Made by a program: the position numbers and the translations under genes. 64,000 nucleotides of DNA from Aliidiomarina soli (lineage in GTDB: Bacteria; Pseudomonadota; Gammaproteobacteria; Enterobacterales; Alteromonadaceae): the NCBI RefSeq assembly GCF_003986975.1, contig NZ_PIPO01000001.1:434001-498000 (forward strand), given 5' to 3'. The notes beneath the pieces are model-generated. The model saw only the letters and a list, made by a program, of their open reading frames with translations. It was not told where the DNA came from and ran no database searches. The stretch's first letter is position 1. Each line of letters begins with the position of its first letter. Shown here one piece after another: positions 35,152-61,532 of this stretch.

Positions 35152-35155
35152 CAAG

Positions 35156-40103: not shown

Positions 40104-40229
40104 ATATCAGGCATAGTGATACTGCGCATCGAGTAAGCTCAGTTTGTTTCCCAAGGGAAAGAGTCTCCTCATAACGAAATCCCCGCTATATCAATTACCT
40201 GACGCCGATACCGCTCGCAAAACCGCGTG
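40104..40229 (+). repeat. Interspersed repeat, copy A
   Basis: About 126 bp, matching copy B (41922-42048) throughout, including an uninterrupted ~30-base core (CCCAAGGGAAAGAGTCTCCT onwards). The core contains the dyad TTTCCC-AA-GGGAAA. Both copies start ATATCAGGCA and end in AAACCG-type sequence. No gene lies inside. Together copies A and B are direct repeats around the CDGSH gene. Confidence 0.8.
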
Positions 40230-40261
40230 GGCCGATTATAAAAATTTGTTCTGTGCTTCGC

Positions 40262-40311
40262 GCTCCAACAGACGCGGCTAAGGCCGCGCCGCTTAGCTTA
40301 GGCGTTATGCC
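40262..40311 (+). other. Degenerate attC-like site
   Basis: GACGCGGC-taag-GCCGCGCC forms a hairpin, followed by GCTTAGCTTAGGCGTTATGC. The last seven bases, GTTATGC, equal the right-hand core of the good attC at 42600, and the approach GCTTA..TTAGGC is the usual attC spacing. The left core box is only weakly recognisable (CTCCAAC), so the site is partial or decayed. Confidence 0.45.
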
Positions 40312-40333
40312 TGTTGAAGAGTAAGGTAAGATT

Positions 40334-41884
40334 ATGAATCCAATAGTTGCAGATAATAAACCCGCCAAAGTAACCCTCTTAAAAGATACGGAGTATTATT
40401 TTTGCTCCTGTGGTCGTTCTGGCAATCAACCATTTTGTGATGGTTCGCATGCAGGAACAGACTTTAAGCCCAAATCATTTATCGCCGAAGAAAGCGGCGA
40501 AGCGTATTTATGTCAATGTAAGCATTCTACTGACCTGCCTTTTTGTAATGGGGCTCACAAGCAGTTCGATGATACTGCGATTGGAAAAGAAGGTCCTGGG
40601 ATCCAAAACAATGCGGACAATATCCCGGTTGCGAATGTATCGAAGGAAGAACCCACCGTTGAGTTCATTCATCAATTAGCCCGGGAAGGCTTATCCAAGA
40701 TGGGGCACCATGGCCCCATGACGTCAATGGGGGTGCCGCGTTATCAGTTGCCGCTCTGGGATGACATTCAGGTGATGGTGGCACAAATGGCAACCAAACC
40801 ATTGTTCGAGGACGCCCTTGTAAATACTGAGTTAGTGATCGGGCCCAAAGCAAAGAAGCCATTGATATTAAAGATTCCATTATTCGTTTCTGATATGAGT
40901 TTTGGCGCCTTATCTGAAGAGGCTAAACTGGCTTTGGCAAAAGGTGCCGAGTTAGCTGGTACAGGTATTTGCTCTGGCGAGGGCGGCATGCTACCTGAAG
41001 AGCAGCAAGCTAATTCTCGCTACTTTTATGAGCTCGCCAGCGCGCAGTTTGGCTATGACGAAGCAAAACTGAAAGATGTTCAGGCTTTTCATTTTAAAGG
41101 CGGGCAAGGTGCCAAGACTGGAACAGGCGGTCACCTTCCGGGCAATAAAAATATTGGCAAAATTTCTGAAGTTCGTGGTATTCCAGCGGGAGAGGCAGCA
41201 ATATCGCCGCCAACGTTTAAAGATTTACACACTGCTGAAGATTTTAAAAAATTTGCTGATCGCGTTCGCGAAGTGACTGGCGGCATCCCGATTGGTTTTA
41301 AACTGAGTGCCAACCACATTGAAAAAGATATTCAATTCGCTTTGGATGCCGGCGCAGACTATATCATTTTGGATGGTCGCGGCGGCGGTACTGGTGCCGC
41401 GCCTGCAATGTTTCGTGACCACATTAGTGTGCCAACTATACCGGCTCTGGCGCGCGCAAGACGCTATCTTGACGCACAAGGTGTAGGTAATGACGTCACT
41501 CTTATTATTACCGGCGGCCTGCGTGTCCCAATGGATTTTGTGAAAGCAATGGCATTAGGTGCTGACGGCGTCGCTCTGTCAAACAGTGCAATGCAATCCA
41601 TAGGCTGTGTAGCTGCACGCATGTGCAACACAAACAATTGTCCGGCGGGAATTGCTACCCAAAAAGCAGATTTGCGTCAGCGACTCAATGTTGATAAATC
41701 AGCAGGACAACTGAAGAATTTCTTTGAAGCGTCGGTTGAACTTATGCAAGTCATGGCGAGAGCCTGTGGCCATGATGCGTTGGCCCATTTCAATAAAGAA
41801 GACCTGGCAACGTTCAATCGCGAGATGGCACTGCTGTCTGGGATACCATATTCAGGATTTGCGGACCTGGAAAAATCGGTATAA
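40334..41884 (+). CDS. CDGSH iron-sulfur / FMN glutamate-synthase fusion protein
   Basis: In 516 residues, two N-terminal CDGSH zinc-finger-like [2Fe-2S] sites are present: Cys24-x-Cys26...Cys35-Asp-Gly-Ser-His39, and Cys60-x-Cys62...Cys71-Asn-Gly-Ala-His75 (Asp replaced by Asn). From about 100 the glutamate-synthase FMN barrel follows, with LFVSDMSFGALSEEAK, GGQGAKTGTGGHLPG, DGRGGGTGAAPAMF and CNTNNCPAGIATQ. It lacks the GltB amidotransferase and GltD partners, so the electron donor and substrate are open. It is flanked by direct repeats A and B and by an attC-like core 20 bp upstream. Confidence 0.9.
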   Translation: MNPIVADNKPAKVTLLKDTEYYFCSCGRSGNQPFCDGSHAGTDFKPKSFIAEESGEAYLCQCKHSTDLPFCNGAHKQFDDTAIGKEGPGIQNNADNIPVANVSKEEPTVEFIHQLAREGLSKMGHHGPMTSMGVPRYQLPLWDDIQVMVAQMATKPLFEDALVNTELVIGPKAKKPLILKIPLFVSDMSFGALSEEAKLALAKGAELAGTGICSGEGGMLPEEQQANSRYFYELASAQFGYDEAKLKDVQAFHFKGGQGAKTGTGGHLPGNKNIGKISEVRGIPAGEAAISPPTFKDLHTAEDFKKFADRVREVTGGIPIGFKLSANHIEKDIQFALDAGADYIILDGRGGGTGAAPAMFRDHISVPTIPALARARRYLDAQGVGNDVTLIITGGLRVPMDFVKAMALGADGVALSNSAMQSIGCVAARMCNTNNCPAGIATQKADLRQRLNVDKSAGQLKNFFEASVELMQVMARACGHDALAHFNKEDLATFNREMALLSGIPYSGFADLEKSV

Positions 41885-41921
41885 CAGGTTTATTCAGCGG
41901 GTCGCATGTGCGAACACCCAT

Positions 41922-42048
41922 ATATCAGGCACAGCGATATCGCGAAACGAGCATGCTCAGTTTGTTTCCCCAAGGGAAAGAGTCTCCTCATAACGAAACC
42001 CTCGCTATATCAATTGCCTGACTTCGATACCGCTAGAAAAACCGAGTG
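41922..42048 (+). repeat. Interspersed repeat, copy B
   Basis: About 127 bp with the same order as copy A: ATATCAGGCA, then a variable 20 bp, GCTCAGTTTGTTTCCCC, the ~30-base core, TCGCTATATCAATT, and a GATACCGCT tail. It begins 38 bp after the CDGSH gene's stop. Between this copy and the next gene lies TTAGACGCC...TTAGTTAGGG, a weak attC-type boundary at about 42086-42113. Confidence 0.8.
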
Positions 42049-42125
42049 CACAAAGCGCGCTGGCGTACTATACAAAGGTTAGCGGCTCGATTAGACGCCT
42101 TGCCTTAGTTAGGGGTAGGTCAGAC

Positions 42126-42584
42126 GTGAAAGCAAAAGAGATTACCTTAGATGACGACCTTCATAGTCTTGTTGGGCAGATTAACTGCGCTTCGTGGGAT
42201 GAGGCCAACGAAATGTCTGAATACGATTATGAGAGCCTCAAAAGATATCTTGAACGCTCCGACACTATCTTCATCGCGTGCAACGAGGAATCTGAGCAAG
42301 GTACTGTCCTTCTAGGTATCGCTTCTTCCAGAATTGAGATGAAGCCATACAGAATGGACCTATGGCTTTACGTTGATGAAGTAGACGTTTGCGTAGACCA
42401 GAGGAACAAAGGAGCTGGAAAACTTATCATGCAGACCCTAATCGAGATCGCAAAAAAAGAAGGTTGCAAGCAAGTATGGTTGGGCACAGAGGTTGATAAC
42501 GCTCCGGCAAATGCTCTATATCGATCTCTTGATCCAGATGAGGTTGCCGAAGTCATTGGGTACACCTATGAAACCGATGAGTAG
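42126..42584 (+). CDS. GNAT acetyltransferase, gene cassette
   Basis: The 152 residues start at GTG 42126. Motif A reads DVCVDQRNKGAGKLIMQTLIEIA (split as DVCVDQRNKGAGK and LIMQTLIEIA), followed by QVWLGTEVDNAPANALYRSL, the motif-B region typical of aminoglycoside/other GNATs in cassettes. Immediately downstream is a canonical attC, so this is a gene cassette. The gene is A-rich compared with flanking chromosomal genes. The substrate is unknown. Confidence 0.85.
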   Translation: MKAKEITLDDDLHSLVGQINCASWDEANEMSEYDYESLKRYLERSDTIFIACNEESEQGTVLLGIASSRIEMKPYRMDLWLYVDEVDVCVDQRNKGAGKLIMQTLIEIAKKEGCKQVWLGTEVDNAPANALYRSLDPDEVAEVIGYTYETDE

Positions 42585-42599
42585 CCACAATCGTCCGGC

Positions 42600-42657
42600 G
42601 CATAACAATCAAATGCAGCGGACGCAGTAAACTGCGTCGCTGATTTAGGCGTTATGC
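42600..42657 (+). other. Integron attC recombination site
   Basis: The outer cores are GCATAAC (42600-42606) and GTTATGC (42651-42657), exact complements. Inside, CAGCGGACGCAGT pairs with ACTGCGTCGCTG leaving one G unpaired on the left arm, the extrahelical base that orients attC folding. TTTAGGC just before the right core is the usual attC flank. The site is 58 bp, near the lower limit for attC. Confidence 0.85.
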
Positions 42658-42675
42658 TTTTGAAAGGAACTAAAG

Positions 42676-43020
42676 ATGATATTCAATACAGAAGATTTTG
42701 AAAAAGAGCTTCCCCTACCAGCAAATCAAAAATGGGAGGAGGGTGTTTGGGACATTGAGGCATATAAAAGAGGTAGCATGTCTCTTATTTATTTCGCGCC
42801 TGAAGGGCATGATTATCAAACACCGCATGACCAAGATGAGCTTTACTTTGTAATTGAGGGGGCCGGTCAAATTGAAATAGAGGGTGTCATTCATCCTTTT
42901 AAAAGAGGTTCGTCCATTTTCGTTGCAGCGGGTCAGCAACACCAATTTATTGGCGAGCTTTCTGGTATGAAAATGTGGGTAGTATTTTGGGGGCCAAAAG
43001 GTGGCGAGTCAAAAGCATAA
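42676..43020 (+). CDS. Cupin-domain protein, gene cassette
   Basis: The 114-residue single cupin has both motifs: HDYQTPHDQDELYFVIEGAGQIEIEG (split as HDYQTPHDQDELYFVIEG and AGQIEIEG) supplies the His/Glu ligands, and FVAAGQQHQFIG the second His. It probably binds a metal. It starts 18 bp after the attC right core behind GAAAGGAAC, and GCATAAC overlaps its stop codon, so it is the second cassette of the pair. The function is unknown. Confidence 0.85.
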   Translation: MIFNTEDFEKELPLPANQKWEEGVWDIEAYKRGSMSLIYFAPEGHDYQTPHDQDELYFVIEGAGQIEIEGVIHPFKRGSSIFVAAGQQHQFIGELSGMKMWVVFWGPKGGESKA

Positions 43021-43060
43021 CAGTCGGCTCATGTACGACCTCCGTTCCGTCAGCTGGAAA
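43015..43060 (+). other. Truncated attC (left half only)
   Basis: GCATAAC at 43015-43021 overlaps the cupin stop exactly as at the GNAT cassette, and is followed by AGTCGGCTCATGTACGACC. No GTTRRRY partner follows before the LysR gene ends at 43072. The array seems to have been broken at this point. Confidence 0.55.
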
Positions 43061-43071
43061 ACGAAGACTAG

Positions 43072-44019
43072 TCACGCCGGGGGCTGCGGCGCATTGCGAT
43101 ACTCCACCAGCCCATCAATAAACTGCCTGATTTTTGCTGCTAAATGCTTACGGCTCGGGTAGATGACCTGAATGGGCGTCGTAGGACCCTGGAAACTCGG
43201 TAATAACTTCACCAGACGCCCGGCGTCAATGTCGGCTTCTAAAAGTGACGAGGGAAGGAATGCGATACCCATGCCCAGAATGGCGGCTTCCCGAATGGCC
43301 TCGCCACTATCGAAACGAAAAAGCCGCCCGCCATTAATTAGTATAGATTCTCCGTCAGGCGCTGTTAACGCCCAACTGCCGGGTCTGGGGTTCAACCCAT
43401 AAATAAGTCGTTGATGGTTTGCCAAATCTTCAGGTGTGTTCGGTGTACCGAAGTTTTCGAGATAATCTGGCGCGGCGTACATACCGCCTTTTGCATGCTC
43501 TATGACGCGAGCGATTAACAAAGAGTCTTGAGCGACTTCTCCTATGCGGATGCTCAGGTCGAAACCTTCTTCAGTCACATCGACAATCCGGTCGGTAAAG
43601 CTGATCTCAACATCAAGCTCCGGCCACTGCTCGAGGAATTTGTTGAGAAAAGGCAGAATAACCGCACGACCATATATTTCCGAAACCGTCATTCGGAGCG
43701 TCCCTGATGGTTGCGGACTGTCCTGTCGAATACTGGATTCAGCTTCTGCCAGATCCTGCAGTATTTGAATGCTGCGTTCATAGAATCGTTGCCCATCGAC
43801 TGTCAGAGACAAGCTTCTCGTCGTTCTGTGGAAAAGTCGCGTGCCAAGATGTGCCTCCAGCCTGGCCACTGCCTTTCCCGCTGCAGAGCGAGTCAGCCCC
43901 CTGGCTTTTCCGCCCGCAATGAAACTGCCTGATTCGGCAATGGCAACGAAGATGCGAAGTGCTTTGAGATCAAGATCGGAATCTTGTTTGTGAGCAGTAG
44001 GGAGGGAACGGAAACTCAT
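43072..44019 (-). CDS. LysR-family regulator
   Basis: The 315 residues have an N-terminal helix-turn-helix (FIAGGKARGLTRSAAGKAVARLE, split as FIAGGKARGLTRS and AAGKAVARLE) and an effector domain with VDVTEEGFDLSIRIG. It is divergent from the RidA gene at 44106. Its 3' end abuts the broken cassette array, so this is chromosomal backbone again. Confidence 0.92.
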   Translation of the reverse strand: MSFRSLPTAHKQDSDLDLKALRIFVAIAESGSFIAGGKARGLTRSAAGKAVARLEAHLGTRLFHRTTRSLSLTVDGQRFYERSIQILQDLAEAESSIRQDSPQPSGTLRMTVSEIYGRAVILPFLNKFLEQWPELDVEISFTDRIVDVTEEGFDLSIRIGEVAQDSLLIARVIEHAKGGMYAAPDYLENFGTPNTPEDLANHQRLIYGLNPRPGSWALTAPDGESILINGGRLFRFDSGEAIREAAILGMGIAFLPSSLLEADIDAGRLVKLLPSFQGPTTPIQVIYPSRKHLAAKIRQFIDGLVEYRNAPQPPA

Positions 44020-44105
44020 TGGCGAACCTAATTCAACAATTTAAGGTGTAGAGTACCACCCTGGAATCTTGTTCCGCAAAGCCCTTTATTGATTCAGGAG
44101 AGAAT

Positions 44106-44513
44106 ATGGCACATCCAATCGTCCGTCTTAACCCTTCAACATTGCCGAATGCCGCAGACATGGGGTACTCGCAAATATCCGTAATCGAGCCAGGTCGTAT
44201 GGCCTATATCTCGGGCCAGGTAGCATGGCAGGCAAACGGCGTGCTAGTACCAGACAGCCTGGTAGAGCAAATGAAACTGGTTGCAAAGAATGCACGGTCA
44301 GCGTTAGATGCTGTGGGTGCAAAACCTGAGCATGTGGTGGTGGCGCGCGTCTACTTAGTGAATCTCACACCCGACAGGTTAGCGCAATTGATGCCTCCGT
44401 TTTTAGCCACCTTTGACGGTGCTCAACCTTGCGTGACTGGCATCGGCGTTGAAGCACTAGCTGCGCCCGACCTGCAGGTGGAAATGGAACTGGTTGTCAG
44501 GCTTCCTGATTAA
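44106..44513 (+). CDS. RidA/YjgF-family protein
   Basis: In 135 residues, the family features are RMAYISGQVAWQANG, a NARSALDAVGAKPEHVVVARVYLVN helix-strand (split as NARSALDAVGAKPEHV and VVARVYLVN) and the closing VEALAAPDLQVEMELV with a Pro-Asp replacing the usual arginine neighbourhood. RidA proteins deaminate reactive enamines or imines. This subgroup, next to LysR genes, often has other substrates. It is divergent from the LysR gene. Confidence 0.88.
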   Translation: MAHPIVRLNPSTLPNAADMGYSQISVIEPGRMAYISGQVAWQANGVLVPDSLVEQMKLVAKNARSALDAVGAKPEHVVVARVYLVNLTPDRLAQLMPPFLATFDGAQPCVTGIGVEALAAPDLQVEMELVVRLPD

Positions 44514-44596
44514 CTGGTAACTAAGCTTTTCGGATTACGGAGGAAACGGCAGATGAACTGGAAAAGATTTTGACAAAAGCGTTTTTTTGTTTAAAT

Positions 44597-44626
44597 ATGT
44601 AGCGCACTACATTATAGCGGGCTATA
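44597..44626. promoter_or_regulatory. Double palindrome, probable MarR operator
   Basis: ATGTAG-cgca-CTACAT (44597-44612) is followed without a gap by TATAGC-gg-GCTATA (44613-44626), ending three bases before the marR start. TTGACA at 44570-44575 with an A/T-rich -10 near 44593 places the dyads at or just after the transcription start, a repressing position. Confidence 0.65.
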
Positions 44627-44629
44627 TGA

Positions 44630-45064
44630 ATGACAAAGATAACACGAAGCGCTGCATCGGAGCTTTCCTTCGCCCTGCACGCCGCCGCGAATCGGATGGT
44701 TCGCTTGCACAAACCGTTTCTTGAACCACTAGGTCTGACGTTCTCGCAGTATCTGGTCACGCTAGAACTGCTGAATGGTGCACCACTATCGGTTGGTGAG
44801 CTATGTACCCGCCTGGATATGGAAACAGGCACCCTGACGCCACTGCTCAAGCGACTACAAGCTGCTGGTGTGGTCACCCGCACGCGTGATCCTTCAGATG
44901 AACGCCGGGTTCTCATCGATCTCTCCAGGCACAGTAAAGATATGGAAGAGGAGCTTCGCGGTATACCCGACAAAATTAGAGTGGCCTGCCAGCTAACCGC
45001 AGGTGAACTCGAAGCGCTGCGTCTGACGCTTGACGGCCTCGGCCGTCCGTTAGCTGACTCTTAA
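44630..45064 (+). CDS. MarR-family repressor (OhrR-like)
   Basis: The 144-residue winged helix has LTFSQYLVTLELLNGAPLSVGELCTRL, split as LTFSQYLVTLELLNG and APLSVGELCTRL, then the recognition helix TGTLTPLLKRLQAAGVVTR and the wing with DPSDERRVLIDLS. There is no N-terminal cysteine in the OhrR position that I can point to with confidence. It is probably autoregulated through the double palindrome and controls the two oxidoreductase genes downstream (34 bp gap). Confidence 0.9.
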   Translation: MTKITRSAASELSFALHAAANRMVRLHKPFLEPLGLTFSQYLVTLELLNGAPLSVGELCTRLDMETGTLTPLLKRLQAAGVVTRTRDPSDERRVLIDLSRHSKDMEEELRGIPDKIRVACQLTAGELEALRLTLDGLGRPLADS

Positions 45065-45098
45065 GACGTAAAATCAAATCACACTGAAAGGAGCACAT

Positions 45099-45845
45099 AT
45101 GAAAATTGGTATCATCGGCATTGGTAGTATCGGCGGCACACTTGCTCGCAAACTCAGCGAGTCAGGGCATGAAGTTCGCGTGGCCAACTCAAAAGGTGCA
45201 GAGGCTGTGCGTCCCTTCGCCGACGAAATTGGTGCCATTCCCGCGAACGCCCATGGGGCCGTCAAGGGCGCAGAACTCGTGATCCTCTCAATCCCGCTCG
45301 CTGCCGTGGTGGAACTCCCCAAAGATTTGTTCGATGCGTTGGGCGCGAACGCGCCGATCATCGATACGGGCAATTACTATCCTGACGTCCGGGACCCCCG
45401 CATTGCAGAGATCGATGACGGAAAGGCCGAAAGCGTCTGGGTTTCCGAACAGATAGGTCGACCTGTGATCAAGGCCTTCAACAACATTCTTGCCCATTCG
45501 CTCACCGAACTCGGCCGGCCGCCTGGGTCTCCCGACCGTATCGCTGTGGCAGTGGCCGGGGATGACGCTCAATCCAAGACGCTAGTCATGGACATCGTGA
45601 GTCAGATCGGCTTCGACCCGGTAGATGGCGGTTCATTGTCGGAATCCTGGCGTCAGCAGCCCGGTACCCCAGGCTACTGCTGTGATTACGATGCAAAGGC
45701 AATGCGAAACGCCTTGGAACAAGCAGTTCCCGGCAAAGCGCCCAGGGTCCTTCAAGAAGTATTCAGCCGCTTCGGGCAGCTTGGACCCAATCCCAGTCAT
45801 GCGGACATCATCAACATGAATCGTTCGGTACATTCCGATGACTGA
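45099..45845 (+). CDS. NAD(P)-binding, F420-reductase-like oxidoreductase
   Basis: In 248 residues, the Rossmann start MKIGIIGIGSIGGTLARKLS and VRVANSKG mark the NADPH-binding domain of the F420-dependent NADPH reductase family (DUF2000/NAD_binding_10-like). ILSIPLAAV and IDTGNYYP follow. AAGGAGCAC precedes the ATG. It is paralogous to the next gene, so a tandem duplication is likely. The codons are richer in G+C than those at 40-43 kb. Confidence 0.85.
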   Translation: MKIGIIGIGSIGGTLARKLSESGHEVRVANSKGAEAVRPFADEIGAIPANAHGAVKGAELVILSIPLAAVVELPKDLFDALGANAPIIDTGNYYPDVRDPRIAEIDDGKAESVWVSEQIGRPVIKAFNNILAHSLTELGRPPGSPDRIAVAVAGDDAQSKTLVMDIVSQIGFDPVDGGSLSESWRQQPGTPGYCCDYDAKAMRNALEQAVPGKAPRVLQEVFSRFGQLGPNPSHADIINMNRSVHSDD

Positions 45846-45872
45846 GTCGAAACAACCAACGTTGAGGATTAC

Positions 45873-46622
45873 ATGATGAAAATTGGAATTTTAGGCAGCG
45901 GATTTATCGGAGGAACTCTGGCTCGGCGTTTCAGCGCTTGCGGCCATACCGTCAAGGTAGCGAACTCACGTGGACCAGAGACAATCGACCCGGACGTGCT
46001 CGCTACGGGCGCACATGCGGTTACGAAGGAAGAAGTCGTAACCGACATTGACGTGCTGATCCTCTCGATTCCTTTCATCCGGATTCCGGATCTCGCGCCG
46101 GTGCTAGCCGAGCTTCCCGCTGAGACAGTGGTGATAGATACGTCAAATTATATTCCTATGCGCGATGACAGGATTGAGGCGATCGAAAAAGGGAAGCCTG
46201 ATAGCGTCTGGGTGACCGAAAAACTAGGCCGTCCTATCGTAAAGGCGTGGAATTCGATTTATTCCGCAACGCTCAAAGAGATGAACCGGCCCGCAGGCGA
46301 CCCCGAACGTGTCGCCGCTCCCGTTGCGGCGGATCGTGACCGTGATCGGGACGTGGCAATGGCACTGGTCGAAGAGTCAGGCTTTGATGCCTATGATGCC
46401 GGGACGATAGCGGACTCATGGCGCCAGCAATGTGGTGCCCCTTGCTACTGCACCGAAGTCACGCTCGCAGAGCTGCCACAGGCATTGGCAAATGCAGACC
46501 TGGAACGTTCACGCAAGCGCCAGGACCTCGCCTTCGCGGTGTACGAGGAACGGTTTGGTACCTCTGGAATAAACCCAGGTCGGGACTTTATCGTTCAACT
46601 ATCTCGCTTACTTAACTTATAG
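45873..46622 (+). CDS. NAD(P)-binding, F420-reductase-like oxidoreductase (paralogue)
   Basis: The 249 residues begin KIGILGSGFIGGTLARRFS and share VANSRG, ILSIPFIRI, VIDTSNYIP, GRPIVKAWNSI and the closing SWRQQCGAPCYCTE with the gene before it (SWRQQPGTPGYCCD there). The cysteine-rich CGAPCYC segment is conserved between the pair. Co-transcription is likely (28 bp gap). Confidence 0.85.
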   Translation: MMKIGILGSGFIGGTLARRFSACGHTVKVANSRGPETIDPDVLATGAHAVTKEEVVTDIDVLILSIPFIRIPDLAPVLAELPAETVVIDTSNYIPMRDDRIEAIEKGKPDSVWVTEKLGRPIVKAWNSIYSATLKEMNRPAGDPERVAAPVAADRDRDRDVAMALVEESGFDAYDAGTIADSWRQQCGAPCYCTEVTLAELPQALANADLERSRKRQDLAFAVYEERFGTSGINPGRDFIVQLSRLLNL

Positions 46623-46652
46623 ATAGACCTGCATCTCGTTCGCTAATCCGTT

Positions 46653-46675
46653 CAGTGGCAGGGAGTCTGCCACTG
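46653..46675. terminator. Perfect nine-base hairpin beyond oxidoreductase pair
   Basis: CAGTGGCAG-ggagt-CTGCCACTG lies 30 bp after the stop of the second oxidoreductase. It has no T-tract, so it would be a weak intrinsic terminator or an mRNA 3'-end stabiliser. Confidence 0.4.
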
Positions 46676-46721
46676 GACAGGTGCTGCGTGACGAACATTT
46701 GTACTACCCAAACACACAACT

Positions 46722-46817
46722 ATGGTGCTGATGACCATCAGCGTCCTCATCGCTTTCCCCACCACCTACTTTTTAGTCGAATGGTGGCTCGCAGGCTTCA
46801 GCGTTCGCGCTAGATGA
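46722..46817 (+). pseudogene. Remnant of a MacB/FtsX-type permease C terminus
   Basis: Thirty-one codons read MVLMTISVLIAFPTTYFLVE then WWLAGFSVRAR and a stop. They align without gaps to the permease at 55995 near its C terminus (MVLMAISVLIAVPGTYFVVE, WWLSGFNVRAS). Divergence from the intact copy is greater than that of the 60.6-kb copy, so it derives from an older or different paralogue. Nothing of the rest of the gene is visible. Confidence 0.75.
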
Positions 46818-46888
46818 AGTTAAGCGAATCATTGAAGCTGATGGCATCGAAAGTTTAATAGGATGAGGCAGGTTCATTTGAATCGTTC

Positions 46889-46973: not shown

Positions 46974-46983
46974 TTACCCATCT

Positions 46984-49011: not shown

Positions 49012-49021
49012 GAGGTCTGTC

Positions 49022-50404: not shown

Positions 50405-51763
50405 TCACCCAAACACACAACGGAAATGCCCGTGTTCGGTGGCGTCGAGCAGTAGCAGGTTGCCGCCTTGCGAGAGCATTAGCGAGCGGGCGAGGGGCAG
50501 GCCGATGCCGCTGCCGGTGGTTTTGGTTGTGAAGAAGGGTACAAAGATGCTGGTGGCGGCGTGTTCGTTGATACCGCTGCCATTGTCGATGATATCCAGG
50601 CACACCTGCTCGTCGAGGCGTTGGGCAACCAACTGAACGCGGCGATGGCTCTGTCCGGTGGTCGCTTCGGCGGCGTTTTTCAACAGGTTAATCAGTACCT
50701 GTTCGAATAAGCTCGGGTCGAGATTCACCTCAAGGGTGTTGTCGATATCGAGCTCAATCTCAATTCCTTCAAACTCTGTTTGCAGCAACCTTAATACCTC
50801 GGTGACCTGAGACCGTAGCGGTTGCACGCTGAGTTTAGCGCGAACCGTTACACTCAAGGCTTTGAACGACTGAATAAACTGGGTCAGGTGCTGGCCGCGG
50901 CGGGTTATGGTGGCGAGGGCTTCGGCTAAATCGTCGCTGCCTTCCACGCCACTATGCAGCATATGGGTGCTTATACTCTGTGCGCTTTGGGTGAGGGAGA
51001 CCATCGGCGTAATCGAGTTTGCCACTTCATGGGTCAGTACTTTTACCAGTTGCTGATGGGCTTTCACCTCTTGGGCGACGAGTTGCTTCTCGATGCTTTG
51101 CAGGGTGAGCAACGTGCGCTGCTGGCCTTGGTTAAAGCCATGAATCAAGGTGTAGAGCAGGGTTTCTCTGCGGTTTGGATAATGCCAGGTGAGCTCGCCG
51201 CGGCTGCCCGTGGTATTGGCACTCACCAGCCGTTGTAACGCTTGTATATTGGGTCTGAGGCCTGGGTTAGACGCATCTGAGCCTTGTCCGGGAACTGAGC
51301 GTCGCCATGCATGCAAGAAGCTTAGCCCGAGCAGACGTTCAGCCGCCGGATTTGACTGCATGATGTGGCCGTCGCTGTCAAACTCCAGCACTGCGATATC
51401 CAGCTGTGCAATGAGTGCTTTTAAATAGCTCGCCTGAATTTCAGCGTCATCGCGGCTGCGGCCGATCTCTTGCTGAACTTGCTTTAGCAGGGGAGCGATC
51501 TCTGGTGCGCCAGGCAAGCTCAAGCTGGCATCGCGGTTGATGAGTGACTTAAGAACCTGACTGATGTGGCTTTGCTGGCGGCTAAACGCGCGCCTGATCA
51601 TCCATAATGAAATAAGCGCAATGACGGCGAATAAGGTTAACGTGGCGGGGCCTGGCAGCAGTGTATGCTCGATATCACCAGACAGATAACTTGCTGTCAC
51701 ACTCGCGACTAATAACACCATTGCCAACGAAAACACTCCAAGCCATATCAGCATTGTTTTCAT
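50405..51763 (-). CDS. Sensor histidine kinase
   Basis: In 452 residues, two N-terminal transmembrane helices (about 4-26 and 40-56) enclose a very short periplasmic loop. A PAS-like segment covers 110-150 (LDIAVLEFDSDGHIMQSNPA). The phospho-acceptor is His245 in LTHEVANSITPM. N box NLLKNAAEA, G1 DNGSGI and G2 GSGIGLPLA complete the ATPase. It resembles NtrY-type kinases. Its start overlaps the regulator's stop by four bases, so they are co-translated. A short loop suggests sensing within the membrane, for example of envelope stress; this is inference. Confidence 0.92.
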   Translation of the reverse strand: MKTMLIWLGVFSLAMVLLVASVTASYLSGDIEHTLLPGPATLTLFAVIALISLWMIRRAFSRQQSHISQVLKSLINRDASLSLPGAPEIAPLLKQVQQEIGRSRDDAEIQASYLKALIAQLDIAVLEFDSDGHIMQSNPAAERLLGLSFLHAWRRSVPGQGSDASNPGLRPNIQALQRLVSANTTGSRGELTWHYPNRRETLLYTLIHGFNQGQQRTLLTLQSIEKQLVAQEVKAHQQLVKVLTHEVANSITPMVSLTQSAQSISTHMLHSGVEGSDDLAEALATITRRGQHLTQFIQSFKALSVTVRAKLSVQPLRSQVTEVLRLLQTEFEGIEIELDIDNTLEVNLDPSLFEQVLINLLKNAAEATTGQSHRRVQLVAQRLDEQVCLDIIDNGSGINEHAATSIFVPFFTTKTTGSGIGLPLARSLMLSQGGNLLLLDATEHGHFRCVFG

Positions 51764-53850: not shown

Positions 53851-53903
53851 CCTCCGTAAGTATAAATCTCAATAACTAATTGAAAAATATATAAATTAAC
53901 GGT

Positions 53904-53918: not shown

Positions 53919-53964
53919 ATAGTCAGGGCATGACGAATATTTCGAGAACGCCCAGAGAGTACCC

Positions 53965-55215: not shown

Positions 55216-55225
55216 GGATCAACCG

Positions 55226-56002
55226 ATGAAAGATTCAATCAGCGACACTCTCAGCGACAACATTAGCAGTGCACTAATAAGTCTGGACAACCTGTCGCGC
55301 GTGTTTCGCACCGAGCAGCTGGAAACCACCGCACTCAATGCTATTAACCTGAATATTCAGGCCGGTGATTTTGTCGCAGTGATGGGCCCGTCCGGTTGCG
55401 GCAAGTCGACCCTGCTGAGTATCCTCGGTATGCTCGATTCCCCAAGCTCAGGCGCCTACCATTTCAAGGGAAATGACATCGCCGCTTACAACGAGCGTAA
55501 GCTGGCGAATTTGCGCAAATCAGAACTTGGCTTTGTGTTCCAAAGCTTCAACCTGATTGACGAGCTGAGCGTACGTGAGAATGTCGAGCTGCCGTTGCAA
55601 TACTTAGGCATGCCCAGGCAGCAACGTCGTGAACGCGCCGAAGCCATCCTCAAACGCATGAACATTGATCACCGTGCTGAACATCGGCCGATCCAGCTGT
55701 CTGGTGGTCAGCAACAACGGGTTGCAGTCGCCCGTGCATTGGTGATTAATCCGGCCGTAATCCTCGCCGATGAGCCCACCGGTAATCTCGACTCAAAAAA
55801 CAGTGACGATGTGATGCAGTTGCTGCGTCAGCTCAATAAAGAGGGCACCACCATTGTGATGGTCACCCACTCGGAACATGAAGCCCGTTATGCCAGCCGT
55901 ATTGTACGTATGCTCGATGGGCGGATTGTGTCTGAAAACGTCAGTGATAATTTGAACGAAAGCAGCAGTGCAACACTAAGCGAGGTGGTGAACCATGGGT
56001 GA
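55226..56002 (+). CDS. ABC transporter ATP-binding protein (MacB/LolD type)
   Basis: In 258 residues from ATG 55226, Walker A GPSGCGKST (54-62), Q-loop FQSFNLIDELSVRENV, signature LSGGQQQRVAVARAL, Walker B VILADEPTG and the H-loop VTHSEHEA are intact. It fits the MacB/LolD/FtsE group that powers mechanotransmission permeases. AATAAGGATCAAC precedes the start, and the stop overlaps the permease start by eight bases, so the two are coupled. Confidence 0.95.
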   Translation: MKDSISDTLSDNISSALISLDNLSRVFRTEQLETTALNAINLNIQAGDFVAVMGPSGCGKSTLLSILGMLDSPSSGAYHFKGNDIAAYNERKLANLRKSELGFVFQSFNLIDELSVRENVELPLQYLGMPRQQRRERAEAILKRMNIDHRAEHRPIQLSGGQQQRVAVARALVINPAVILADEPTGNLDSKNSDDVMQLLRQLNKEGTTIVMVTHSEHEARYASRIVRMLDGRIVSENVSDNLNESSSATLSEVVNHG

Positions 56003-58409
56003 TCAATTCGCGATGTTCGCCAGCTACCTGAAAACCGGCTTGCGTGCGCTACTGCAGCAAAAAGTGCATCTGGCACTGAATTTAATCGGCCTGTCGGTCG
56101 GCTTAGCTGCGGCGGTGCTGATATTGCTTTACGTGCAGTTCGAGCGTGGTTATGACCAGATGCACCCAGAGGCTGAACAGACCTACCGGGTTGAACAGTT
56201 CTTTACCCCTTTGGATCAACGGTTTCCTATCAGCAGCCCGGCCATTATCGCCGAGTTTCAGACTTTCGATTCGCGCATTGAAGGCACCCGGCTATTCGAC
56301 AGCTCGCTTGATGTCCGGCCGCAAGATGCCCGGTTACCCATGCAACTCGACTATTTAGCGGTTGAAGACAACTTCAGCGAGTATTTTTTGGTGGACGTCT
56401 TAGCGGGTGATCTGGACACAGTGCTACGTGACCCCAGCAACATAGCGTTGTCGGAAGACCAGTCGCAGCGCCTTTTTGGACGCACCAACAGTGTCGGGGA
56501 AACACTCACCACGGATAGTGCCACCTATACAGTTGCAGCGGTTTTCGAGGTACCCGAGCAAAGCCACCTGCATGCCGATGCCCTGATGTTAGTGTCCGAA
56601 GCAGATTTGGATCAGCCTCTACTTTCAAACAATGCGCTGGTGTATTTGCATATTCCTGATGATGCGAATTTTGAAGGTTTATTGGAAGGAGTGTCGCAGG
56701 CGCTTGCTGACAAAGTCTATCACGAGCGGGGCGTCGCAGAAGTCATGCTGCGCAAGCTGACAGATATTCACCTGCGCTCACAACTGTCTTATGAACTGAA
56801 AACCAATGGCTCGCGCGCCACGTTGTTAACCGCAGCGGTGCTTGCAGGTTTATTGTTGTTGGTGGCAAGCATCAACTTTATCAATATGAGTATTGCCCGC
56901 TCTGGCAGTCGCGCGAAAGAAGTCGGCGTGCGCAAAACCCTGGGCGCCACCCGCTGGCAACTATTTAGCCAGTTTATGCTGGAATCGCTGATGGTGGCCC
57001 TTATTGCGGGCTTTATCGCGGCGATCTTAGTTGAACTCAGTGTTGGCGCTTTCAGTAACCTGGTCAACCGGCCTATAGTCCTTGAGTATTTTGGTAGCTA
57101 CGGCGCCTTACTGTTGCTTTGCAGCACGGTGATTGGCTTGCTGGCTGGTATTTATCCGGCGTTGTTTATCTCGGCGTTTAACGCCAAGCGGGTGCTCAGC
57201 GGTGATTTGCAGCGCGGCAATACGGCGGTGTGGGTGCGCAAAGGTCTATTGGTGGTGCAGGGCGCCATTACGGTGGCGCTGCTTATCGGCAGTGCGATCC
57301 TGCAACAACAGCTCGATATTTTGCTGAACCAGGACCCGGGTTACCAAACTGAATCGCGATTAATCGTGCGCGATATCGATAATTCCTACCTTTTTTGGTC
57401 AGACAATCAAAGCCTCGTCACTGATATTTCAGCGATGAATGGGGTGCGCGCGGTCAGTCCAACCGATGTTGAGCTCACGCAAACATACGCTCAGGTATCA
57501 ACACTACGTATACCAGGCCAGACCCAAGCTGACCGCTTGCCACCCGTGGCAACTTTTGGTGCCGGCTACGATTTTGTTGAAACCACAGGCATACGTTTAC
57601 TGGCAGGGCGCGACTTTGATGCAGAACGGCAGGCGGACTGGTTTACGCTAGGCGATACCCATGCAACCGCTTCCGCGATTGTTACCGCCTCACTCGCCCG
57701 TCAGGCCGGTTACAGCGACTTAGACTCGGTGCTGGGAGAGCGCTGGATGATAGGCGAAGACAACGTCCCCACTGAGCTGCATATTGTTGGTGTAGTGGAC
57801 GACTTTCAGGTGGGCGCTGCGACGCAATATGTGGGTTTAGCGCTGATGGTTGCAGGCCGGTCATCAATGCCAGAGGCAGATTTAATTATTCATCTAGAAC
57901 CAGCCACTGCCCTCAGCACACGCAGTGAGATTGAAGCCATGTTGCAGCAGCGCCTCAACCGCATGGACATACATACGTCCTGGTTAGGCGCGGACTTCTC
58001 CGCCATGTACCAAAACCAGGAGCGACAGCGCACCATCATTATACTGTTCGCAGGCCTCGCCATCCTGTTGACCTGTATCGGGCTATTCGGCCTTGCTGCC
58101 TTCAGTGCAGAGCAACGCAGCAAAGAAGTCGCCATGCGCAAAGTCCTCGGTGCCTCGCGCATGCAAATCGTCAACACCCTGGCCAGGGAATACATGGTGT
58201 TGATGGCGATCAGTGTGTTGATTGCGGTGCCTGGTACTTACTTTGTGGTTGAGTGGTGGCTCTCCGGCTTTAATGTACGAGCCAGCCAAAACGCAGGCCT
58301 ATACCTGATTGCGGCTGCGCTGACCGTTGCCATCTGCTGGCTGACCGTGGCGGGGATCAGCATGCGGGTGGCTAGTCGTAAGCCGGGGTTAGTGTTGCGG
58401 CAGTTTTAA
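55995..58409 (+). CDS. MacB/FtsX-type ABC permease
   Basis: In 804 residues, the layout is helix (30-47), a large periplasmic domain (MacB_PCD, about 50-270), a three-helix FtsX module (about 280-410, VASINFINMSIARSGSRAKEVGVRKTLGA, split as VASINFINMSIARSGSRAKE and VGVRKTLGA), a second periplasmic domain (430-670) and a second FtsX module (GLFGLAAFSAEQRSKEVAMRKVLGA, split as GLFGLAAFSAEQRSKE and VAMRKVLGA). Duplicated FtsX modules are typical of the 800-residue two-module exporters. It should export a peptide, lipid or drug. Two decayed copies of its C-terminal end exist elsewhere in the window. Confidence 0.93.
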   Translation: MGDQFAMFASYLKTGLRALLQQKVHLALNLIGLSVGLAAAVLILLYVQFERGYDQMHPEAEQTYRVEQFFTPLDQRFPISSPAIIAEFQTFDSRIEGTRLFDSSLDVRPQDARLPMQLDYLAVEDNFSEYFLVDVLAGDLDTVLRDPSNIALSEDQSQRLFGRTNSVGETLTTDSATYTVAAVFEVPEQSHLHADALMLVSEADLDQPLLSNNALVYLHIPDDANFEGLLEGVSQALADKVYHERGVAEVMLRKLTDIHLRSQLSYELKTNGSRATLLTAAVLAGLLLLVASINFINMSIARSGSRAKEVGVRKTLGATRWQLFSQFMLESLMVALIAGFIAAILVELSVGAFSNLVNRPIVLEYFGSYGALLLLCSTVIGLLAGIYPALFISAFNAKRVLSGDLQRGNTAVWVRKGLLVVQGAITVALLIGSAILQQQLDILLNQDPGYQTESRLIVRDIDNSYLFWSDNQSLVTDISAMNGVRAVSPTDVELTQTYAQVSTLRIPGQTQADRLPPVATFGAGYDFVETTGIRLLAGRDFDAERQADWFTLGDTHATASAIVTASLARQAGYSDLDSVLGERWMIGEDNVPTELHIVGVVDDFQVGAATQYVGLALMVAGRSSMPEADLIIHLEPATALSTRSEIEAMLQQRLNRMDIHTSWLGADFSAMYQNQERQRTIIILFAGLAILLTCIGLFGLAAFSAEQRSKEVAMRKVLGASRMQIVNTLAREYMVLMAISVLIAVPGTYFVVEWWLSGFNVRASQNAGLYLIAAALTVAICWLTVAGISMRVASRKPGLVLRQF

Positions 58410-58423
58410 TTCGTTAGGACAGG

Positions 58424-58446
58424 AGCCGCAGGGACGCGGCTTTTTT
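58424..58446 (+). terminator. Intrinsic terminator of exporter operon
   Basis: AGCCGC-agggac-GCGGCT followed by TTTTT lies 15 bp after the permease stop; six-base stem, six-base loop, clear T-run. Confidence 0.8.
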
Positions 58447-58612
58447 ATCTCTTGTAATCAATGCTCGTATAACGGGAGCATGGCATTCTCTCGGTGGAAT
58501 AACAGCGATGAACCTGAGCTTGTTCTTTCTGAGTTGATTAACCTGCTGAATAATTTACTTGTGATAGATTTGCAAAATCAGTAACATACGCCGCTCTATT
58601 TAAACAGGAACG

Positions 58613-58633
58613 GTAAAGAAGCATCTTCTTTAC
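58613..58633 (+). repeat. Nine-base hairpin in leader of following gene
   Basis: GTAAAGAAG-cat-CTTCTTTAC is a perfect stem 24 bp upstream of the ATG at 58657. It may affect mRNA stability or translation. The rest of the 58447-58656 gap shows no gene. Confidence 0.35.
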
Positions 58634-58656
58634 GGTAAACATGGAAGGTTATTATT

Positions 58657-59307
58657 ATGGAATTAATGAATGCGTTTAGCTCGATCCCGACAATTTGGGT
58701 TTATATTTTAGCCAGTTTGTCTGTCGTCATCTTATTGACTTTATTTGCCTGTATCCCATTTCGAGTCATCTTTACACAGCGTCCACTGATAGTGTCCTCC
58801 CGCGTTGTTGCTGCCTCTGCGTCCTTTTTTATCGGGTCTATGCTTTTTGTTTGGGTTATGAGTTTCGGTGCGTCATCCCATCGCCTTGAAGTGTATCAAT
58901 TAATAACCCCTGTTGCATTTTTAGTGATTTTGTTGGCCGTCTGGATTCGTCTGAAAGGCTATACCGTCATGGGGCGTAATATTGATTACTTTCGTGATGC
59001 AATAATGGCATCCGTCAAATCTCTAGGATTTACGGCTGAAGAAAGTACGTCCGGCAAAGATACTTACACGCTCAGAATTGAGGAAACAGGTGCAGAGATT
59101 CAGTTTGTAGTTATTCGAGGGTTTGGCGCAGTGCAAATTATGAGCGCAAATAAGCAGTCTAAAGCTATTACGTCGAAAATTGCAACTGAGATGGAAAGTT
59201 ATTTTAAAAACCATCAAGGTAAAATGAATTATGTCCTTCCGAGCGCGCTCTCAATCTTATGTTTTATGTTGATAGCCTTCAATATCCTCATTATCACAAC
59301 CCGGTAA
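58657..59307 (+). CDS. Hypothetical four-TM membrane protein
   Basis: In 216 residues, three hydrophobic helices are in the first half (9-37, 46-68 and 78-92), a cytoplasmic-sized alpha/beta domain lies in the middle (GKDTYTLRIEETGAEIQFVVI), and one helix is at the end (SALSILCFMLIAFNILIITT). GGAAGGTT precedes the ATG. The family is not recognised. It stands outside the exporter operon, behind that operon's terminator. Confidence 0.55.
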   Translation: MELMNAFSSIPTIWVYILASLSVVILLTLFACIPFRVIFTQRPLIVSSRVVAASASFFIGSMLFVWVMSFGASSHRLEVYQLITPVAFLVILLAVWIRLKGYTVMGRNIDYFRDAIMASVKSLGFTAEESTSGKDTYTLRIEETGAEIQFVVIRGFGAVQIMSANKQSKAITSKIATEMESYFKNHQGKMNYVLPSALSILCFMLIAFNILIITTR

Positions 59308-59400
59308 TGGCACCTAGTTTTTCAGTACGCCGCTAAACTAGCGGTGTACGTTCCGCCGTATAAGGCACTCCAACATGCAATTTACATATAAGGAAGTAAT

Positions 59401-59886
59401 GTGAAAGAAATTAAGTCTATTGGGAAGCTTAAAGAGCAAAGCACTTGGCGTTTGTTTGCTCTGGGGGTAATCACACTTGGGGTGTATTTTGCATTCTACA
59501 TAAAACGACAAACAGCCAAAATAAACGATATGGTTGATGAACACAAACAAATATCTACGGCTTTTGTAAACGCGATTATAGCCATGTCATTTATTTCGTT
59601 ATTCCTTCTTTTCGCCTCTATGCCGTTTCTCATGGTTACACCGCAAAGCGAGATTCATCCGGTAGTGGCAATAAGCGATTTGTCTAATTTCATTTGTGGA
59701 ATCATGTTGTTGGTTTGGGCAATTATAGCTCGAAATACACTGAATTCTGCTTATGAAATATCTAAAACTGATGATGAATGGTTTCATGGATTGTGGACAG
59801 TTCTCTTCACGACTATGTACTTTAATTACCATGTTAACCGTATCGGCGAGCAGCATGCAGAAAAAACGGCTACAGCAGGCTCCTAA
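59401..59886 (+). CDS. DUF4234-like membrane protein
   Basis: The 161 residues start at GTG 59401 behind AAGGAAG. STWRLFALGVITLGVYFAFYIKRQTAKIN (split as STWRLFALGVITLGVYFAF and YIKRQTAKIN) matches the DUF4234 opening (a helix, then W/Y-K). Helices at 18-34, 55-75, 90-108 and 130-145 follow. The function is unknown. The stop touches the LysR remnant. Confidence 0.65.
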   Translation: MKEIKSIGKLKEQSTWRLFALGVITLGVYFAFYIKRQTAKINDMVDEHKQISTAFVNAIIAMSFISLFLLFASMPFLMVTPQSEIHPVVAISDLSNFICGIMLLVWAIIARNTLNSAYEISKTDDEWFHGLWTVLFTTMYFNYHVNRIGEQHAEKTATAGS

Positions 59887-60113
59887 AATCGCGGTTCACC
59901 AGGCCGAGAAAGATTAGGAAACTTCACTTCCTTGAGCACATCAAGAAACGTGTGCAAGGGCGCCGGAACATGGCGGTGGCCGGGGTAATAGATACAAAGC
60001 CCCGGCCCGGTGGACACTCGCCAATGCAACTTCCTCTCCATCTTTTTCAAACTCCCAATGATAGAATTTCCCAGTTGGCAGGCGACGCCAGACACAGGCG
60101 TGAGCAACTGAGG
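59886..60113 (-). pseudogene. LysR C-terminal remnant
   Basis: Reverse-strand translation gives RRLPTGKFYHWEFEKDGEE in one frame and GPGLCIYYPGHRHVPAPLHTF plus LDVLKEVKFPN in another. Both align to the LysR protein at 31183 (HRLPSGKLYRWEFEKDGEE and GPGLCVYYPGHRHVPGPLRAF), with about 60 intervening residues missing and a frame change between. No helix-turn-helix remains. It is a dead fragment. Confidence 0.8.
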
Positions 60114-60118
60114 AAACT

Positions 60119-60595
60119 ATGAAACTGACATTTAGCCCCTGGTACCATTGGTCCTCCAGAAATGAATACCCCGGCATTGCTTTTCCGGGCATCTACGTCG
60201 TGGCTTTGTCTGAAGATAACCTTTGCGGGAAGGCATTTTCATTCAAAGACGGCGTTATTTATGTTGGCATGACCAATAGCGTTGCCGGCCTTCGTGGTCG
60301 CTTAACCCAGTTTGACAACACTATCGCCCAGAAACGCTGCCAACATGGGGGCGCCGACAGGGTGCTGTACAAGCATCAAAACTATCCTGCATTAGTGAAA
60401 AATCTCTATGTCTCACTTTGCCATGAGACATGCGAACCGGCAGCAGAAACTGCACTCGATCTTCGTGCGATGGGGAAGGTTTGTAATGCGGAATATGAAA
60501 TGATGGCTAGATGCGTCGAAGAGCTAGGACAACTCCCTGAATTCAACCGTAAGAAAGAGAGCCTTAAGTTCAGCCTTGCGCATGGTCGACGCTAA
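60119..60595 (+). CDS. GIY-YIG-like nuclease-fold protein
   Basis: The 158 residues have the GIY...YIG pattern as FPGIYVVALSED then DGVIYVGMTNSVAGLRGRLTQF, in which Tyr and Gly replace the canonical letters only slightly; the arginine of the fold is in GLRGRL. A later CHETCEPAAETALDLRAMG might be metal binding and ends in a Glu typical of the fold. I call it GIY-YIG-like with caution. It is whole, yet sits between two dead gene fragments, so it may have come with a mobile event. Confidence 0.6.
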   Translation: MKLTFSPWYHWSSRNEYPGIAFPGIYVVALSEDNLCGKAFSFKDGVIYVGMTNSVAGLRGRLTQFDNTIAQKRCQHGGADRVLYKHQNYPALVKNLYVSLCHETCEPAAETALDLRAMGKVCNAEYEMMARCVEELGQLPEFNRKKESLKFSLAHGRR

Positions 60596-60602
60596 CTAAT
60601 CA

Positions 60603-61146
60603 GGAACGTTCGCACCGAGCTTCATATTGTTGGTGTGGTGGACGACTTTCAGGTGAGCGCTGCGACATTGAAGCCATGTTGCAGCAACGCCTCAACCGGA
60701 TGGACATACATACGTCCTGGTTAGGCGCGGATTTCTCCGCCATGTACCAGAATCAGGAGCGACAGCGCACCATCATTATACTGTTCGCAGGGTTCGCCAT
60801 ACTGTTGGCCTGTATCGGGCTGTTCGGCCTTGCTGCCTTCAGTGCAGAGCAACGCAGCAAAGAAATCGCCATGCGCAAAGTTCTCGGTGCCTCGCGCATG
60901 CAAATCGTCAACACCCTGGCCAGGGAATACATGGTGTTGATGGCGATCAGCGTGTTAATTGCGGTGCCTGGTACTTACTTTGTGGTTGAGTGGTGGCTCT
61001 CCGGCTTTAATGTACGAGCCAGCCAAAACGCAGGCCTCTACCTGACTGCGGCTGCGCTGACCGTTGCAATCTGTTGGCTGACAGTGGCGGGGATCAGTAT
61101 GCGGGTGGCTAGTCGTAAGCCTGGGTTGGTGTTAAGGCAGTTTTGA
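60603..61146 (+). pseudogene. Partial decayed copy of ABC permease 3' end
   Basis: From about 60603 the sequence follows the permease gene at about 57766, then jumps at 60666 over roughly 108 bases and continues with the last 160 codons to the same stop. The final 156 codons are still open and nearly identical in protein (GLFGLAAFSAEQRSKEIAMR versus ...EVAMR). There is no promoter, start or ATPase. It is a recent partial duplication of the 55995 gene with an internal deletion. Confidence 0.85.
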
Positions 61147-61364
61147 TTATAAGTGCCTATAATTGGGTTTAACAAAGCGGCACGTTTGCTCAAATAAGCG
61201 CGTTTGTTGTTTTCAAGCTGATAATAATCGAAGTGGTTCCTTTTGGGTGGTGAAGTTTTGCGCTAAGTTCAGCAGGGTATGAATAAGCATTGTTGTTGGT
61301 TCGCTTAGAGTTGCGAGGCAAGAACAATTCCACTAGAGTCTTTTATATAAAATTAACTTGCCAC
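61147..61364. other. Non-coding gap before repeat copy C
   Basis: I see no gene here. The stretch is A/T-rich and includes GTTTAAC near 61170 and several GCGCGTTTG-like words, but no convincing attC or terminator. Confidence 0.4.
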
Positions 61365-61434
61365 GGATACTAGGCATAGCAATACAGTAATACGAGCCTG
61401 CTCAGTTTGTTTACCAAGGGAAAGAGTCTCTTCT
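61365..61434 (+). repeat. Interspersed repeat, copy C (truncated)
   Basis: About 70 bp reading GGATACTAGGCATAGC, a variable stretch, then CTGCTCAGTTTGTTTACCAA and GGGAAAGAGTCTCTTC. These match the left and central parts of copies A and B; the right third is missing. The cassette-like genes begin about 120 bp downstream. Confidence 0.7.
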
Positions 61435-61525
61435 GTTATCTATCTTATCTTAGCTGTTTCAGTATCTAGCTTGTTTTTTTGTGGGGTTTTGAGTGTTTTG
61501 AAAGCGCGCGTGAGCAATGTCATCT

Positions 61526-61532
61526 GTTAGGC
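61526..61532 (+). other. Lone GTTAGGC core box
   Basis: GTTAGGC is a perfect attC/attI right-hand core (GTTRRRY) 22 bp before the next start codon, where a cassette boundary is expected. No matching left core or stem is seen upstream, so chance cannot be excluded. Confidence 0.35.

Follow-up and report, generated by a model that had tools for sequence, protein, structure and literature searches.

The repeat in the Aliidiomarina soli window

The DNA considered here (the window) is a stretch of 64,000 nucleotides from Aliidiomarina soli, positions 434,001 to 498,000 of contig NZ_PIPO01000001.1 (assembly GCF_003986975.1); the genome, 3.1 Mb in 11 contigs, is labelled G000. A degenerate repeat occurs in it at 40097-40170, 41915-41988 and 61360-61433. 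A first-pass annotation, made from the sequence alone, had proposed that this repeat is a primary site for the capture of integron cassettes that operates without a nearby integrase. Our analysis supports the proposal: the repeat is homologous over its full length to the attachment site (attI) that is linked to an integron integrase gene (intI) in G011, a metagenome-assembled genome labelled Idiomarina sp., and no intI was found in G000.

A profile hidden Markov model (HMM) of the whole module to which the repeat belongs, 229 positions long, matched the three copies with E-values of about 6e-49 (copy 1), 2e-46 (copy 2) and 4e-41 (copy 3); copies 2 and 3 were among the sequences that trained it, copies 1 and 4 were not. 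The decayed fourth copy that had been suspected at 32247 is also real (E about 4e-16). Together with a run of small genes, it lies in a 7-kb segment (30099-37070) that is absent from A. sedimenti GBSy1 (G010), where the flanks are joined directly. A 31-base core motif, searched with up to three mismatches, gave two matches in the window and none in shuffled sequence, copy 2 being missed through an extra base. Of the core positions first assigned, 61526 for copy 3 was right; the core of copy 2 is at 42078 and not near 42109, and the GTTATGC at 40305, taken for the core of copy 1, lies outside the repeat and apparently belongs to the right half of an attC, the recombination site of cassettes.

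The features of the window are collected in Table 1. Copy 1 lies about 75 bp behind a gene for an RluA-type pseudouridine synthase, and a complete site is present at the same locus in G010. The attC behind the first gene at copy 2 was the sole match in the window with a score of at least 13 and a free energy (dG) below -0.30 per base, with none in the reversed control. The GNAT protein encoded by that gene has matches at E<=1e-20 in 2 of 295 genomes of the family, G000 included; one 59% homologue was found in another genus, where no attC was detected, and none in plasmids. Behind the open reading frames (ORFs) at copy 3 there is only a weak attC candidate (score 11), at about 62582. Set against a complete integron, the window genome has no intI found, a motif for the cassette promoter (Pc) in copies 1, 3 and 4, and one attC cassette (42600-42657). 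Clusters of attC sites lacking integrase (CALINs) are defined by at least two attC without intI; the window has one clear attC, and three were found in stretch L071 of G010.

Table 1. Integron-related features and adjoining genes in the window
Feature	Coordinates	Strand	Basis and remarks
Possible attI fragment	23057..23106	+	nhmmer, HMM 13-62; weak, E about 6e-5
Decayed attI, copy 4	32189..32380	+	nhmmer, HMM 9-206; putative Pc readable at 32194-32222 (TTGCGT, 17, TAGAGT)
Orphan attI, copy 1, without 3' end	40034..40231	+	nhmmer, HMM 2-198 of 229; HMM 199-229 lost
Putative Pc of copy 1	40046..40074	+	Read from sequence; TTGCGG, 17-bp spacer, TATGGT
Segment in place of the attI end of copy 1	40232..40311	+	Right part, ending GCGTTATGC, tentatively like an attC right half; complete attC not scored
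ORF of 516 aa, CDGSH and glutamate-synthase domains	40334..41884	+	Pfam
Orphan attI, copy 2	41849..42081	+	nhmmer; 3' end intact, left ~70 bp (expected Pc place) diverged
Core of copy 2	42078..42084	+	Sequence; GTTAGCG
GNAT acetyltransferase, cassette gene captured at copy 2	42126..42584	+	Pfam
Canonical attC after first gene behind copy 2	42600..42657	+	Score 14, dG -0.48 per base; R'' GCATAAC, R' GTTATGC
Cupin ORF, probable second cassette	42676..43020	+	Pfam; R''-like GCATAAC overlaps end (43015-43021); complete attC not found
Orphan attI, copy 3, complete	61304..61529	+	nhmmer
Putative Pc of copy 3	61311..61339	+	Sequence; TTGCGA, 17-bp spacer, TAGAGT
Core of copy 3	61526..61532	+	Sequence; GTTAGGC
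Overlapping ORFs of 147 aa and 194 aa following copy 3	61555..62558	+	Neither Pfam nor PADLOC match

The repeat as an attI site with a putative cassette promoter

Copies in related genomes were located with two nhmmer profiles, one for copies like those of the window (type A) and one for the copies around most intI genes (type B). The stretches examined (L numbers) were chosen because searches had hit attI, intI or flanking genes there, and the profiles were themselves trained on many of these copies; the attI counts given below are therefore a census of finds and not a random sample. Both profiles together marked 53 places, of which 40 reach the 3' end of the module and are termed full-length (21 type A and 19 type B); the other 13 are partial. 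Candidate attC sites were predicted with a finder of our own, filtered in the census at a score of at least 12 and dG below -0.30 per base.

An alignment of 24 copies identified the repeat as the middle part of a longer module of about 230 bp, which starts about 12 bp upstream of a -35 box and ends at a GTT core, typically with ACTATACAAATGTTA, beyond which the copies diverge abruptly. Near the left end is a box of the form TTGNNN-17-TANN(G/A)(T/C), present in 36 of the 40 full-length copies and in 1.4% of random stretches of equal length; we take it to be a putative Pc, its activity being inferred from the motif. The GTT is kept in 38 of the 40, and the bases that follow it vary between copies, with a strict GTTRRRY in 11 of 35. 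When pairwise identity was followed across the core in successive 5-bp steps (35 of the 40 copies across both types), it fell from 0.84 to 0.34 and then to 0.23-0.32 in type A, and from 0.80 to 0.30 and then to 0.24-0.28 in type B, so that background similarity was reached within 5-10 bp past the core. At the other end, similarity among type A copies begins within 10-15 bp of one common point upstream of the -35 box, an argument for a discrete module.

The identity of the module is given by its neighbours. In G011 a full module lies directly upstream of intI (L053/L070; HMM 2-229, E 5e-49, this copy being in the training set), and type B copies flank intI in five Aliidiomarina genomes. A lack of association with GTTRRRY cores or variable genes had been named beforehand as what would speak against a capture site. 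What we found is the GTT conservation described above and, within 4 kb downstream on the same strand, an attC candidate at 24 of the 40 full-length copies; the reversed-sequence control gave 1 of 40 and the upstream side 6 of 40. A BLAST search gave seven clear copies in G000 (E<=0.001) and an eighth match, of 20 bases, at E 0.055. In the same genome there was no match to intI at E<=1e-40, and at E<=1e-3 only XerD and XerC were found. Of the two IntI-like proteins of G000, XerD scored above its own cut-off, and XerC reached 335.3 bits against a cut-off of 335.15. Seven genomes that have a full-length attI (G000, G010, A. haloalkalitolerans AK5 (G001), A. maris CF12-14 (G005), G004, G008 and G015) gave no intI at E<=1e-40.

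From these features we consider it highly probable that the repeat is the attI of the integron of this genus together with its cassette promoter, present in G000 in several scattered copies with no intI found, and that cassettes would enter at its GTT through an IntI acting in trans. One could instead regard the repeat as an unrelated dispersed element, of the repetitive extragenic palindromic (REP) or miniature inverted-repeat transposable element (MITE) kind, lying near cassettes by chance. It is indeed dispersed and multi-copy, and its matches are confined to 6 of the 58 genomes searched (G000 and 57 relatives), all of one genus, Aliidiomarina. A chance neighbour of cassettes would hardly coincide with the region upstream of intI in G011, stop at the cassette boundary and carry a spaced promoter motif; the present results already contradict such an origin, which we regard as extremely improbable.

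An attC-like or RNA-like fold of the site was also considered, since an early alignment contained an apparent covarying hairpin, and was rejected. RNAalifold gave -0.4 for the last 80 bp of the 21 type A copies and 0.0 for those of the 19 type B copies; with practically no consensus stem in the module end, the repeat is not an attC. Scans of the window against Rfam and for tRNA gave no matches. Nor was the repeat found in viral contigs, searched with one exact degenerate pattern, or in phages and plasmids, searched with blastn.

Gene content at the core

The first-pass annotation had suggested testing whether gene content changes exactly at the core between strains. Six pairs of orthologous sites were compared, and the change is exactly there in three; in the other three the attI end is diverged or lost. 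At two orphan sites G000 and G010 have 10,981 bp and 9,565 bp of common flank, 94% identical up to the core, and differ beyond it. In the third pair (G008 and G011) the attI sequences are 91% identical and the similarity ends at the core, the left flank being interrupted. At one locus, site A, the proximal 4.6 kb of G010 and 6.5 kb of G000 differ, while a distal cassette and a farther 2.2-kb block are again common to both, as expected if new cassettes enter next to attI.

Individual cassettes recur at different sites. One, starting with GTTAGGCATTCA, follows an orphan attI in G008; in G010, G000 and the G011 array with intI it is preceded instead by attC-type ends, recognized by eye. Its copies are 86-97% identical and start at GTT. 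A second cassette is common to an orphan attI of G005 and the G011 array (86%). These are our strongest results: one gene unit, with an identical first base, is preceded by different recombination sites.

Several observations weigh against reading the repeat as an attI-Pc module served in trans. The absence of intI rests on draft assemblies, though seven genomes agree. The box search recognized no Pc motif in copy 2 of the window. At a score of 12 and without the energy filter, the attC finder is unspecific, with 15 matches in the window and 8 in the reversed sequence, and in the filtered census 16 of the 40 full-length copies had no detected attC within 4 kb, three of them with less than 1 kb of sequence left. 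In the comparison of G010 with G005, similarity ends about 59 bp before the core; the 3' end is missing from two sites of G000, the attI in L042 and the window's copy 1, so these pairs are not clean. Differences between species could also stem in part from losses or homologous recombination. Where no attC was found, the genes may have arrived by another route, or the attC may have been missed.

Integrase genes and double-headed integrons

Across the 17 genomes of the genus, intI scored above the NCBIfam cut-off in six; G000, G010, G005 and G008 are not among them. IntI is full length in G003, G006, G007 and G012, and there it keeps the R, HxxR and Y stretches, which we take to be the expected motif. 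The gene is broken in three others: frame changes interrupt it in G013 and G011, and in G002 it has a stop codon and lacks an N-terminal part.

In G003, G006 and G012 a common block of about 1.5 kb (76-87% identity) has the order GTT core, attI, intI, inverted attI, GTT, and the sequences differ outside it. The intI gene thus lies between two divergent attI sites with genes extending outward on both sides, an unexpected arrangement that we call a double-headed integron. Inverted similarity of the intI flanks was far above that of 60 shuffles at five of the seven Aliidiomarina loci (G003, G006, G012, G013 and G002); G007 and G011 were negative. In the family, 221 of 295 genomes were positive for intI, and its other genera were sampled through the 30 best-scoring loci listed, one per genome, of which one had too little flank; 28 of the 29 tested were not above shuffles, and L129 was marginal (33 against a maximum of 30). 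The G007 locus (L085, 9258-12399) is a single-headed integron whose attI is more diverged, so that the profiles catch only part of it; its end is still TATACAAATGTTA.

The sequence comparisons indicate that cassettes were captured at the downstream attI too. Candidate attC sites were found on both sides of intI in G012, G002 and G006. The cassette next to the downstream (3'-side) attI of G006 is found again in G008 and G011, there behind attC-type ends. A 299-bp stretch that begins at the upstream attI of G003 occurs, 99% identical, in the downstream-side array of G006, where it starts behind an attC candidate. Back-to-back attI sites without intI also occur, two pairs in G015 and one in G006, their profile matches being 76-269 bp apart. 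Between the members of these pairs (L149, L150 and L152) lie pieces of intI or of its flanks, which indicates that intI was deleted there. In G015, one of the genomes without intI at E<=1e-40, one pair has attC candidates on both sides.

Further occurrences of the module were noted in the fetched stretches. Tandem attI series are present in L043 (6495-11000) and L068 (12540-15577), each with one complete copy and the rest without the 3' part. A complete type A attI lies in L066, contig6 of Idiomarina xiamenensis 10-D-4, a record not named Aliidiomarina. Among the first genes behind intI-less attI sites (L150, L071, L067 and L081) are relatives of defence or toxin-antitoxin proteins, namely AbiJ, a Swt1-like HEPN protein, a PDC-S06 candidate and a Phd-type antitoxin; in a PADLOC scan of ten proteins, three matched. 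Elsewhere in the window, 57762-58220 and 60605-60957 share direct repeats, one 300 bp long (94%) and one 62 bp long (90%); an FtsX-domain ORF overlaps the second copy, suggesting duplication and truncation of a permease gene.

Origin and spread of the modules

In the proposed mechanism, an IntI acting in trans, either a resident enzyme since lost or one brought in, would insert circular cassettes by recombination between their attC and the GTT of an orphan attI; genes would then come to lie directly downstream of the module and be read from its Pc. We infer action in trans, as opposed to an intI formerly located at every site. Single modules most likely spread through deletion of intI from whole, often double-headed, integrons and through segmental duplication. 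We found individual examples of each process; most type A copies show no sign of either in-place loss of intI or segmental duplication.

Every orphan attI might, on the other hand, be what remains of a separate integron that lost its intI in place, no module ever having moved alone. Besides the intI pieces within the pairs in L149, L150 and L152, which in L149 and L150 are also recognized at the protein level (E 7e-4 to 2e-3), an attI of G008 (at 440k) adjoins an ORF of 97 aa that keeps 19 aa of IntI at 79% identity. The census divides the full-length copies into 11 that adjoin an intact or broken intI, 7 with intI remnants only (five by tblastn and two, in L152, by DNA comparison) and 22 with neither within 400 bp. 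Thus 22 of the 29 intI-less copies show no intI similarity at that distance (24 by tblastn, minus the two of L152), a point against general loss in place. Independent deletions would not readily give the common start point of type A copies, and up to seven former integrons would be needed in one 3.1-Mb genome. We regard loss in place at every site as a serious possibility that falls somewhat short of an even chance.

The extra copies in G011 and in the window could also reflect segmental duplication, or homologous recombination between attI copies and flanking genes. In L068 of G011, a shortened piece of an rlu-type gene is repeated directly before a second, complete attI, and blastn found a second DNA copy of the window's 516-aa CDGSH/glutamate-synthase gene in G000, 89% identical (L042, 9660-11249); both lie behind a 3'-truncated attI. 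Many non-orthologous pairs of copies, in contrast, have little more than the module in common, and as an account of these extra copies we hold duplication or recombination to be on the unlikely side.

A further possibility is that the units of spread are gene-attI pairs, with attI taking the place of attC (delta-attI-type cassettes), moved by IntI. In our own count of ORFs, which are unverified, a co-directional ORF immediately precedes 20 of the 21 independent type A orphan sites. Orthologous copies were treated as a single site, and one orthologous pair with conflicting neighbours was set aside. The attI-gene-attI tandem series in L043 and L068 would fit such units, and IntI1 excised genes between two equal attI1 sites at >97%, according to PMC12901181. 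At three sites, however, the left gene (for an RluA-type synthase, a peptidase-like and a response-regulator-like protein) is inside the long flank common to G000 and G010, so that these genes are probably chromosomal and not cassettes. Among single type B orphans a co-directional ORF clearly precedes one of three (L151, 15589); one has none and one is ambiguous. Adjacent genes in bacteria mostly share their direction in any case. Spread as gene-attI units seems to us improbable.

No clean empty site for the module was found at site A, site B or the rlu site. Among the 17 genomes, only G000 and G010 have the left gene of site A, and at site B the other genomes cease to match around the left gene's stop codon. 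In G005, rlu is followed almost immediately by the gene found at 50409 in the window; in G000, 76 unexplained bp separate rlu from attI.

Comparison with known systems

The modules resemble the attI and Pc of known integrons, such as attI1 of class 1, in lying between intI and the first cassette, in the end of homology at a GTT core, in an outward promoter box and in the attC genes that come next. They differ in that 29 of the 40 full-length Aliidiomarina copies have no adjoining intI, that seven BLAST copies occur in one genome, and that the intI of sister species has one copy on each side.

Integrase-less attC clusters are known (PMC12444791; PMC8618304), and the attC cassettes without nearby intI in Xanthomonas (PMC12444791) are comparable to the orphan arrays of Aliidiomarina, which likewise lack a nearby intI. 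Those of Aliidiomarina differ in being headed by a recognizable attI with a putative Pc, so that entry site and expression platform are kept, and many have one or no detected attC. Functional attI-type sites are also known inside the cassette arrays of class 1 integrons (PMC12901181); there too an attI occurs away from intI and attI-gene-attI series are seen. Those sites are inside one integron, as part of a mobile gene, whereas the Aliidiomarina modules are near-complete and occupy separate loci behind chromosomal-looking genes. The attG sites discussed in the same paper likewise concern cassette insertion away from an integron; they are said to diverge from classical att sites, whereas the homology of the Aliidiomarina copies to intI-linked attI extends over about 230 bp. 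In Treponema, where intI is read towards attI, the site is on the 3' side of intI (PMC3607928), as is the downstream attI here; five Aliidiomarina genomes differ in having attI both upstream and downstream of intI, pointing apart. According to PMC3607928, an integron has a single attI in every case.

Neither scattered attI-Pc modules nor an intI between two divergent attI sites is described among the matches listed in the open-licence literature, subscription papers being outside the search. Chances seem to us evenly balanced that an intI between two divergent capturing attI-Pc modules, together with scattered modules serving as independent landing pads supplied in trans, represents a use of the integron not described in the literature searched.

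Significance

An integron is usually described as one integrase, one attI and one array. The parts found in Aliidiomarina are integron parts; their number and arrangement differ. Here the entry site is multiplied and detached from the enzyme with its promoter box kept, and the same cassettes circulate between orphan sites and true integrons. Orphan attI modules would naturally explain how cassette arrays without integrase, yet with a defined entry point, arise, and the results suggest that such platforms can escape searches centred on integrases or on attC clusters. The double-headed form would make it testable whether a single IntI serves both sites at the same time, and what becomes of both directions relative to replication. 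If the interpretation is right, cassette turnover in these bacteria would be a multi-locus process that outlives any single integrase gene, with captured genes expressed from many chromosomal positions.

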